Below, in pieces: positions 3,739-14,016 of a DNA stretch of 64,000 nucleotides (its first letter is position 1; every line of letters begins with the position of its first letter). Below the pieces are notes generated by a model. It did not search any database, was not told where the DNA came from, and saw nothing but the letters and a program-made list of their open reading frames with translations. A program made the position numbers and the translations under genes. The stretch covers positions 1,692,001-1,756,000 of the forward strand of contig NZ_NQYC01000001.1 of assembly GCF_003600835.1 (NCBI RefSeq), read 5' to 3'. Source of the DNA: Bacillus sp. PK3_68 (GTDB lineage Bacteria; Bacillota; Bacilli; Bacillales; Domibacillaceae).

Positions 3739-4101
3739 TTATTTTCCTTCTCCCGACTGATCGATCCATTCTTGCAGCTTATCTTTTAACGTATTAAAGC
3801 CTTCACTGTCTTCAGCAATTTTCAAGCGACGGACCGGCTGAACAGCAGCTGGCTTTGCTTCTTCGGTTGCCCGGATAGATAAGCTAATTTTCCCCTCATC
3901 TTTGTTAACGGACATCACCTTTACCTTTACTTCTTCCCCGACCTGAAGGTAATCATGAATGTCCTTGACAAATCCATGAGTAATTTCTGAAATATGGACG
4001 AGCCCCTGTGTACCGTTATCCAGCGCAATAAACGCCCCATAAGGCTGGATTCCTGTTACCTTTCCTGTAATAATTTGTCCTTGTTCAATCTGATTTCCCA
4101 T
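3739..4101 (-). CDS. yugI: S1-domain RNA-binding protein, YugI/GSP13 family
   Basis: This protein of about 120 residues has one S1 (OB-fold) RNA-binding domain at its N-terminus (GQIITGKVTGIQPYGAFIAL, then GLVHISEI and KVKVMSVN). A charged tail of about 45 residues ends in an amphipathic helix. Proteins of this type bind RNA or ribosomes, and B. subtilis YugI is a general stress protein. The ATG at 4099-4101 is chosen because AGGAG lies seven bases upstream; an earlier in-frame codon at 4128 has no RBS. In B. subtilis yugI adjoins alaT-alaR. Here the same three genes are present but separated by yerD and an SDR gene. Confidence 0.9.
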   Translation of the reverse strand: MGNQIEQGQIITGKVTGIQPYGAFIALDNGTQGLVHISEITHGFVKDIHDYLQVGEEVKVKVMSVNKDEGKISLSIRATEEAKPAAVQPVRRLKIAEDSEGFNTLKDKLQEWIDQSGEGK

Positions 4102-4229
4102 CCAAACACTCCTAAATGTTAAATTCATTATCTACGCATCACAAAATTATATCACATCTCCTTATATATTTCTAAACATAGCCACCTTTCTCCAGCTCTT
4201 CATATAAGTAGGAAATTATTTTTAACTAT

Positions 4230-4342
4230 TTGGAGAAAAGAGGAATAACTCCTCTATAAACAGGGAAGAGTTAGTATATGCAACATTCCCTATTTTCCCC
4301 TTAACTTGAGAAGGCAGCCGTTGCAGCTGTCTTCTTTTTATA
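4230..4342 (+). ncRNA. Candidate C-rich small regulatory RNA
   Basis: No ORF longer than eight codons is present and both flanking genes are on the minus strand, yet a plus-strand intrinsic terminator lies here. Its stem is AGAAGGCAGC (4309-4318) and GCTGTCTTCT (4326-4335), followed by a T-rich tail. Upstream are a small hairpin (4239-4244 with 4250-4255) and an inverted pair AGGGAA/TTCCCT (4262-4267, 4286-4291). Two C-rich motifs (ATTCCC and TTTTCCCC) precede the terminator. Exposed C-rich motifs before a terminator are typical of Firmicutes sRNAs that pair with Shine-Dalgarno sequences, such as RoxS and FsrA. A weak promoter (TTGGAG at 4230, TATAAA at 4255, 19-bp spacer) would give an RNA of about 75 nt. 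Function and expression are inferred. Confidence 0.45.
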
Positions 4343-4377: not shown

Positions 4378-4432
4378 ATAAACTCAAACAAAAAAACTAC
4401 ACTTCGGGTGTAGTTTTTTTGTTTGAGTTTAT
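4378..4432. terminator. Long perfect inverted repeat, bidirectional terminator
   Basis: Arms of more than 20 bp (AAACTCAAACAAAAAAACTA and its complement) flank a TTCGG loop. The A- and T-rich stem sides provide U-tracts in both directions. It probably ends the minus-strand yerD-like gene and isolates it from the small-RNA locus. Confidence 0.8.
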
Positions 4433-4461: not shown

Positions 4462-6069
4462 TTATGCTTCTTTTTTTCGTTGCGCCCGTTCTGCCGCTAT
4501 AATAATATCCTCGAGCGGCATAAGCCGCCCAAGTTCATCTTTGTAAACAATATGTTTGCGTTCAAATTTCGTTGGAGAATCAATCCCTGCAGCTGCTGCC
4601 AGATTATATAGTCCTTCTCGGAGCGATATCACATAGTTACACACACGATAATACTTCTCCTCAACGACTAATCCGTCCTGCAGCTTTTCATCAGTTGTAG
4701 CTACGCCAACTGGGCATGTATTATTGTGGCATACTTGAGCCATAATGCAACCAACACTAATCATAAATCCGCGGGCGATGTTAACAAGATCCGCTCCCAT
4801 AGCGAGCGCAATGGCTATCTTGTCAGGAGTAATGAGTTTTCCCGAAGCGATAATCTTTACTCTGTCACGAATCTCGTATCTTTTTAACATTTCATCAAGA
4901 ACCGGCAGAGCAGACATAATCGGCAAGCCAACTGTATCAGCTAGTTCCTGGAAAGTAGCACCTGTTCCACCCTCACCGCCATCTACTGTAATAAAGTCAG
5001 GCCCTTTGCCGCTTTCTTTCATATAGGAAATCATATTTTCCAGTGCATCAAGGTCTCCAACAACAATTTTGATACCAACCGGCTTACCTCCCACGGAACG
5101 CAGCTGCTCAACAAAATCGAACATTGACGGCACATCATCAAACTCATAGAAACGGTTTGGACTGTTAATCGTTTTTCCTGGTTCTACAAGGCGGATAGCA
5201 GCAATCTTTTCTGTAACTTTCTCACCTTCCACATGACCGCCTCGTGTTTTGGCTCCTTGGGCTAATTTTAATTCGAACGCTTTCACATTCTCTATCTCAC
5301 TTTTCTTTTTAAACTCTTCCCACGAAAATTCACCACTTGGTTTCCGCACACCGAATAGATCAGGGCCAATCTGCATAATGATATCCGGACCGCCTTCAAG
5401 ATGATATTCGGACAAGCCACCTTCCCCTGTATTCATCCAAGTGCCGCCGGCAAGACCTAGACCTTTGGAGAGAGCCGTGATCGCTCTTTCGCCAAGCGCT
5501 CCAAAACTCATCCCCGATTGGCCAACCTGGCCTCGCAATTTAAATGGATGACGGCATGTTTTCTCGCCAAGGATGATCGCGTCTTCCTCTCTCAAATAAT
5601 AGGGATCGACCAAACGTTCCTCACTGTGTTCCTTGCGGGTAAATAAATTGTCAGAGTCCACTTTATATACATGTGTTTTTATCTTTTCAGTATTATCCAC
5701 TTTCATTTCTTCACGCTGCTTCGGAAATAAGGTATTGCGTATAAAAAAACCTTCCTCATTAAAATCACGCTTTGAGCCGAATCCAACGAGCCGCTCTTTA
5801 TACTTCCCGGCTTTCACAATATCCTGGTATTCTTTTCTCGAAAAAGGCTTTGCTTCATTATCGCCTTCGAATAAATATTGCCGCAGCTCGGGGCCAATAT
5901 GCTCGGTAAAGTACCTCACTTTACCGATAACTGGGAAGTTACGCAAAATAGCATGCTGCTTCTGTCGATCATCTTTAATATAAATATAGATAAAGAGACC
6001 GACAGGCACCACAATAACTAATGCGAGAAAAATAATAAGAGCAATAATTAATCCTGATGTTAAACTCAT
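4462..6069 (-). CDS. yerD: FMN-binding glutamate synthase-like protein, YerD type
   Basis: The 535-residue protein has an N-terminal transmembrane helix (about residues 7-32) followed by a glutamate-synthase-type FMN/TIM-barrel domain. Recognisable segments are GQVGQSGMSFGALGERAI, LAQGAKTRGGHVEGEKV, DFITVDGGEGGTGATF, IIASGKL and AMGADLVNIARGFMISVGCI, followed by CHNNTCPVGVAT. The last two include the cysteines that bind the 3Fe-4S cluster in glutamate synthases. The glutamine amidotransferase domain of GltB is absent, so this is the stand-alone archaeal-type domain. The substrate is not known, and a role in glutamate or methylamine metabolism should not be assumed. The RBS AGGAGGGG precedes the ATG at 6067-6069. 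It sits between yugI and alaT-alaR, which adjoin in B. subtilis. Confidence 0.85.
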   Translation of the reverse strand: MSLTSGLIIALIIFLALVIVVPVGLFIYIYIKDDRQKQHAILRNFPVIGKVRYFTEHIGPELRQYLFEGDNEAKPFSRKEYQDIVKAGKYKERLVGFGSKRDFNEEGFFIRNTLFPKQREEMKVDNTEKIKTHVYKVDSDNLFTRKEHSEERLVDPYYLREEDAIILGEKTCRHPFKLRGQVGQSGMSFGALGERAITALSKGLGLAGGTWMNTGEGGLSEYHLEGGPDIIMQIGPDLFGVRKPSGEFSWEEFKKKSEIENVKAFELKLAQGAKTRGGHVEGEKVTEKIAAIRLVEPGKTINSPNRFYEFDDVPSMFDFVEQLRSVGGKPVGIKIVVGDLDALENMISYMKESGKGPDFITVDGGEGGTGATFQELADTVGLPIMSALPVLDEMLKRYEIRDRVKIIASGKLITPDKIAIALAMGADLVNIARGFMISVGCIMAQVCHNNTCPVGVATTDEKLQDGLVVEEKYYRVCNYVISLREGLYNLAAAAGIDSPTKFERKHIVYKDELGRLMPLEDIIIAAERAQRKKEA

Positions 6070-13891: not shown

Positions 13892-13898
13892 TTTTCTC

Positions 13899-13931
13899 TT
13901 AGTTTTTTATAGAGGGAGTTCGCGAACCTCT
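13899..13931 (-). promoter_or_regulatory. preQ1-I riboswitch aptamer
   Basis: On the minus strand the 33-nt element begins AGAGGTTCGCGAACTCCC and ends CTATAAAAAACTAA. This matches the class I preQ1 aptamer: a short P1 stem (GAGG/CCTC), a C-containing loop and the A-rich 3' tail that forms the H-type pseudoknot. It lies about 120 nt before the queC ATG with a terminator in between. Binding of preQ1 is expected to shut off queCDE. Confidence 0.9.
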
Positions 13932-14016
13932 CCTGCCTAAAGCAGAATTCTTCCTTTTATTCTGATACACTATAACACACATTGGCCAAAATGAAAAACA
14001 TACAGCAAGTGCCTCG

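Follow-up and report, generated by a model that had tools for sequence, protein, structure and literature searches.

In Bacillus subtilis, where a 2021 review counted only five trans-acting sRNAs with known targets, small terminated C-rich RNAs that pair with ribosome-binding sites are a reviewed class (PMC8464778). With so few characterised in that species, the sRNAs of the wider Bacillaceae are for the most part unmapped. The C-rich regions of RoxS pair with mRNAs, and the G-rich regions of RosA bind C-rich RNAs (PMC8464778). For FsrA, the sole pairing shown in vivo (with gltAB) bypassed the C-rich regions (PMC8464778), and anatomy alone can therefore not settle the mechanism of such an RNA.

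Here we analyse a candidate of this kind in a 64,000-nt stretch (the window) of the genome of Bacillus sp. PK3_68, a member of Pseudobacillus, in comparison with its congeners B. badius NBRC 15713, B. wudalianchiensis and B. aerolatus. A preliminary description had placed a C-rich sRNA at 4230-4342 on the plus strand and had likened its layout to RoxS and FsrA. Judged from sequence comparison, it is very probable that positions 4256-4339 constitute a real sRNA gene (Table 1). Its best explanation, in which we have slightly more confidence than doubt, is a lineage-specific trans-acting sRNA whose C-rich linker would pair with Shine-Dalgarno regions. A blocking of ribosome-binding sites, as in RoxS and FsrA, is plausible by anatomy only. 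The element appears to be undescribed in the sources searched, the working class itself being known, and the literature on transcriptomes or sRNAs of B. badius and Pseudobacillus yielded nothing useful.

The element is neither RoxS nor FsrA. Positions 4230-4342 gave no match to the RoxS/RsaE model (RF01820) at gathering score or at E ≤ 10, and true RoxS is found elsewhere in all four Pseudobacillus genomes (100-107 bits with the same model). The RoxS of this genome lies at G000:C1:3614089-3614196 (106.9 bits). RoxS expression is controlled by ResD and Rex. As predicted, the candidate would be, like RoxS, a small terminated Bacillota RNA with C-rich single-stranded segments (AUACCCCUUUG and UUUCUCCCAUCCCCUUUG in this genome's RoxS), and pairing with ribosome-binding sites is its suggested mode of action too. 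They differ, however, in the order of hairpins, in the single exposed C-rich linker of the element and in length (~85 nt vs. 108-115 nt), and the element evolves far faster, since it is 75-84% identical among the same four genomes in which RoxS is 96-99% identical. FsrA resembles the element in length (84 nt, about equal), C-rich regions and terminator, but the element did not match its covariance model (RF02273), and none of the 24 genomes of the family passed the cut-off, which a B. subtilis control did pass. As FsrA, which is expressed under Fur control in iron limitation, was not found in the family, a functional stand-in for it is conceivable; no Fur-box-like TGATAATNATTATCA was recognised by eye upstream of the element. 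With the sponge RNAs RosA and RsaI the candidate might share sRNA-sRNA interactions within the same regulatory circle, although it is itself C-rich whereas RosA carries G-rich regions. Rfam held no other fitting family for the element at gathering score and at E ≤ 10, and matches on the hairpin at 4383-4427 were microRNA-model noise. If real, a C-rich sRNA limited to this lineage would stand alongside RoxS in a family that yielded no FsrA, and would test how these regulators arise and whether one replaces another.

Table 1. Features of the intergenic region and its flanking genes (positions in the window).
Feature	Position	Strand	Description
gsp13/yugI	3739-4101	minus	S1-domain RNA-binding post-transcriptional regulator of the CvfD/GSP13 family; NCBIfam NF005973 and NF040579 above cut-off
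Upstream hairpin AGAGGA/TCCTCT	4239-4255	plus	Outside the conserved unit; specific to this genome
Possible -10 element AATAAC	4244-4249	plus	Weak; ATAA invariant in five genomes (alignment)
Candidate sRNA	4256-4339	plus	Putative start, ~10 nt uncertainty
Conserved hairpin	4262-4291	plus	AGGGAA 4262-4267 / TTCCCT 4286-4291
Core GCAACATTCCCTATTYTCCCC	4280-4300	plus	21 nt; identical throughout the genus save one T/C position (alignments)
C-rich linker TATTTTCCCCTTAACT	4292-4307	plus	Between hairpin and terminator; putative mRNA-pairing region
Intrinsic terminator	4308-4339	plus	11-bp stem 4308-4336, then T-rich
Terminator of yerD-like gene	4383-4427	both	Bidirectional; separate from the sRNA terminator
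yerD-like glutamate-synthase-domain gene	4462-6069	minus	Pfam PF01645; convergent with candidate sRNA

Extent, distribution and conservation of the element

The strong plus-strand terminator which had been recognised between two minus-strand genes, with no ORF ahead of it, is confirmed: it lies between gsp13 (start codon 4101-4099, minus strand), which is divergent from the candidate, and the yerD-like gene, and no plus-strand gene precedes it. The boundaries, in contrast, had to be redrawn from 4230-4342 to a conserved unit of about 4256-4339, with a 5' boundary near 4254-4262 in the alignment; the upstream hairpin at 4239-4255 is absent from the other four genomes that carry the element. In the alignment, a stretch following the gsp13 promoter, unalignable among species and differing by ~100 nt in length, gives way to the conserved ATAA, then to AGGGAA...GCAACATTCCCTATTYTCCCCYTRAYT and finally to the conserved terminator stem. 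The unit thus delimited reads, from 5' to 3', as the hairpin AGGGAA/TTCCCT, the C-rich linker and the terminator. Conservation of the C-rich part had been set beforehand as a test, and an invariant segment across the five genomes was indeed found: no letters of the intergenic region are better conserved than the C-rich strings, TTYTCCCC being invariant in all five save one T/C, and within the genus the pattern GCAACATTCCCTATTYTCCCC occurs once per genome.

A BLAST search of 61 genomes located the block in each of the four Pseudobacillus genomes, with the gene arrangement unchanged. From these four sequences a covariance model was built; it recovered a fifth copy in one genome of the sister genus (49 bits, E 2.6e-7), which is likewise located between minus-strand gsp13 and yerD, and no convincing copy in the other 19 genomes of the family. 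Four of these 19 have a yerD homologue, and none of the four has gsp13 within 1.5 kb of it. Across 299 genomes of the order, the best inspected matches besides the window's own copy reached 34-42 bits and shared the terminator stem only. The exact core, scanned for in the GTDB contigs, occurred only in the three named Pseudobacillus records and in five others that are unrelated; we took the exact matches in cyanobacteria, Chloroflexota and other MAGs as chance. Two-mismatch matches to the core in two other genomes of the family were read in the same way, because one of them falls inside the reading frame of an IstB-like transposase. Plasmid records that were searched for the element gave no match. 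Among the genomes searched, none outside Pseudobacillus yielded the element except one of its sister genus; it thus appears lineage-restricted, so that the expected spread across Bacillaceae was not borne out.

The identity of the unit decreases to 60-68% with the sister genus. At the four-fold degenerate sites of yerD next to it, identity among the same four species is 30-42%, i.e., close to saturation, and the 75-84% identity of the 85-nt unit therefore reflects purifying selection on a non-coding element. The core, measured as 4280-4302, is 91-100% identical, and the 21-nt core upstream of the stem is more conserved than the terminator stem.

Folding, promoter and coding potential

In the 1.7-kb stretch scanned, nine terminator-like sites were counted compared with 1.0 in shuffled sequences, several being overlapping versions of one hairpin. 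The fold of 4230-4342 was more stable than 200 of 200 shuffles (z -3.85), and RNA folds of four species had z values of -3.3 to -6.6. Folded as 113 nt, the RNA adopts a three-way structure in which GGAGAAAA is paired with UUUUCCCC and TTTTCCCC is hidden; the GGAGAAAA/TTTTCCCC closing helix of this fold is not kept as such in other species. In the four congeners none of the 17 pairs of the conserved hairpin and terminator is disrupted; of the six hairpin pairs one varies between A-U and G-U, and in the sister genus the hairpin is shortened to GGGA/TCCC. Every genome retains the terminator stem, in which one pair is compensated. Because two-sided change occurs in this pair only, covariation neither proves nor denies the hairpin. 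The T-rich tail follows the stem mainly on the plus strand and is clear in four of the five genomes; in the sister genus, T runs flank the stem on both sides.

Of the two C-rich motifs proposed to be exposed, both strings are present, but ATTCCC lies in the conserved hairpin, as its base-paired 3' arm, and the exposure of TTTTCCCC depends on the start of the RNA: its predicted mean probability of being unpaired is 0.67 for a start near 4256 and 0.22 for one 25 nt further upstream. Among short forms from the five genomes the linker is predicted to be mostly unpaired in four (0.57-0.67) and partly paired in P. badius (0.30), while a start 25 nt upstream would bury most of it in this genome and P. 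wudalianchiensis. As predicted accessibility shifts with the 5' end, the start point matters.

With a sigma-A scoring matrix that is approximate and written from general knowledge, no plus-strand promoter scored above shuffled sequence at a position shared by the species, the best site not being common to them. The sole hint of a plus-strand promoter is the invariant ATAA (4245-4248), suitably spaced from the conserved 5' end, and the sRNA might depend on another sigma factor or on an activator. The only strong promoter nearby is that of the divergent gsp13 on the minus strand, which scored 13.7 (shuffled maxima ~9). Together with the start of the leader (TATAATTTTGTGATGCGTAGATAA; 4129-4180, minus strand) it is kept far outside the genus: 26 nt are 96% identical in two genomes of another genus, and the match is weaker in three more. 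This conservation exceeds what an ordinary promoter needs, and a leader element of the gene for this RNA-binding regulator is possible.

No ORF in the unit is conserved among the five genomes. We rejected an 8-codon plus-strand micro-ORF with its ATG at 4278, because this codon is missing or out of frame in other species, and also a minus-strand ORF beginning at the core, which is 10, 19, 21 or >30 aa long, has no conserved codons and is broken in the sister genus.

Proposed mechanism and candidate targets

We infer transcription of the unit, its start point, its pairing with ribosome-binding sites and the direction of the effect. The RNA would be ~80-90 nt long and comprise a short 5' tail, a hairpin with a C-rich 3' arm, the single-stranded linker UAUUYUCCCCYURA and the intrinsic terminator. 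Most likely, the linker would block ribosome binding on several mRNAs by pairing with their G-rich Shine-Dalgarno regions (AGGGGARAA), and opening of the hairpin could lengthen the pairing. Whether blocking of Shine-Dalgarno sequences would be its main activity we regard as an even call.

The linker is complementary to Shine-Dalgarno sequences of the AGGGGARAA type, and in favour of such pairing the core GCAACATTCCCTATTYTCCCC complements a ribosome-binding site together with its start codon (AGGGGARAATAGGGAATG). The pattern AGGGGARAA-N0-9-ATG occurs 43-55 times per genome compared with 18-24 times in the reversed control, an excess expected of any Shine-Dalgarno-like string. The sites retrieved from three genomes include those of five genes that retain this pattern upstream in each species; from their recognisable protein sequences we take these genes to be lgt, spoIIR, flgE, asd and a LysR-type regulator. 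Conservation of a Shine-Dalgarno sequence is in any case to be expected. The extended 17-nt complement had no genome-wide excess over reversed controls (44 vs. 34, 30 vs. 28, 31 vs. 23 and 36 vs. 42). Among its non-self matches a site with the spoIIR sequence comes up in each of the four genomes, three times with two mismatches and once with three. The candidate target sites show no change that would compensate for the T/C position of the linker. Since extended sites are not in excess and the T/C change is not mirrored, spoIIR and flgE are put forward as no more than first candidates. The mRNAs of gsp13 and yerD were unremarkable as targets, ranking 22 and 12 among 55 genes of the window. Target prediction against ribosome-binding sites, as had been proposed, thus produced plausible shared sites (spoIIR, flgE, lgt and asd) without a genome-wide excess. 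The main point of the preliminary description, a conserved candidate RNA that is non-coding, has its own terminator and contains an invariant C-rich segment, has good support from the comparison of the five genomes; its boundaries, its exposed motifs and its spread were wrong.

Alternative readings of the locus

A real conserved sRNA might also act in another way, by binding a protein (for example the neighbouring GSP13/CvfD) or by sponging RNA, with Shine-Dalgarno pairing not being the main mode. The missing excess of extended sites would fit this, as would the loop bases GCAACA and the hairpin arm, which within the genus are conserved as strongly as the C-rich linker, and the constant position divergent from the gene of an RNA-binding post-transcriptional regulator. 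Neighbourhood alone, however, is weak evidence among five related genomes, and in the studied Bacillus sRNA RoxS it is the C-rich regions that pair with mRNAs (PMC8464778), so that we consider such a mode unlikely, though far from negligible. It is quite improbable that the sRNA and the divergent GSP13/CvfD form a dedicated pair, in which GSP13 would serve as matchmaker or stabiliser; if true, this would be a Bacillota lineage with an sRNA encoded beside its own RNA-binding partner.

The block might instead be a conserved DNA or minus-strand element, namely an upstream control site of gsp13, a leader or 3' UTR, or a small minus-strand ORF, for which AGGGGARAATAGGGAATG would supply ribosome-binding site and start codon. 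Although the sole strong promoter nearby is on that strand and the stem of the sister genus is flanked by T runs at either end, we consider this reading improbable: the gsp13 promoter is situated downstream of the block, at widely variable spacing; the minus-strand ORF is kept neither in length nor in codons and is interrupted in the sister genus; in four of five genomes the T run clearly follows the stem on the plus strand; and yerD of P. wudalianchiensis and P. badius likewise has separate terminator-like hairpins. That the region is only a terminator stopping antisense or read-through transcription, the remainder being background, would agree with the promoter search, which found none on the plus strand, and T-rich intergenic hairpins are common. 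The 21-nt core, however, outdoes the stem in conservation next to four-fold sites near saturation, which speaks strongly against it, and no plus-strand gene lies upstream; we hold it to be very improbable.

Two further observations concern the surroundings. The terminator at 4383-4427, between the candidate and the yerD-like gene, is a perfect 20-bp hairpin with A7/T7 runs; P. aerolatus and the sister genus are without it in that form, and there the sRNA terminator almost abuts yerD. Further along the window, a PreQ1 riboswitch (Rfam RF00522, 53.8 bits) is located at 13893-13936 on the minus strand.
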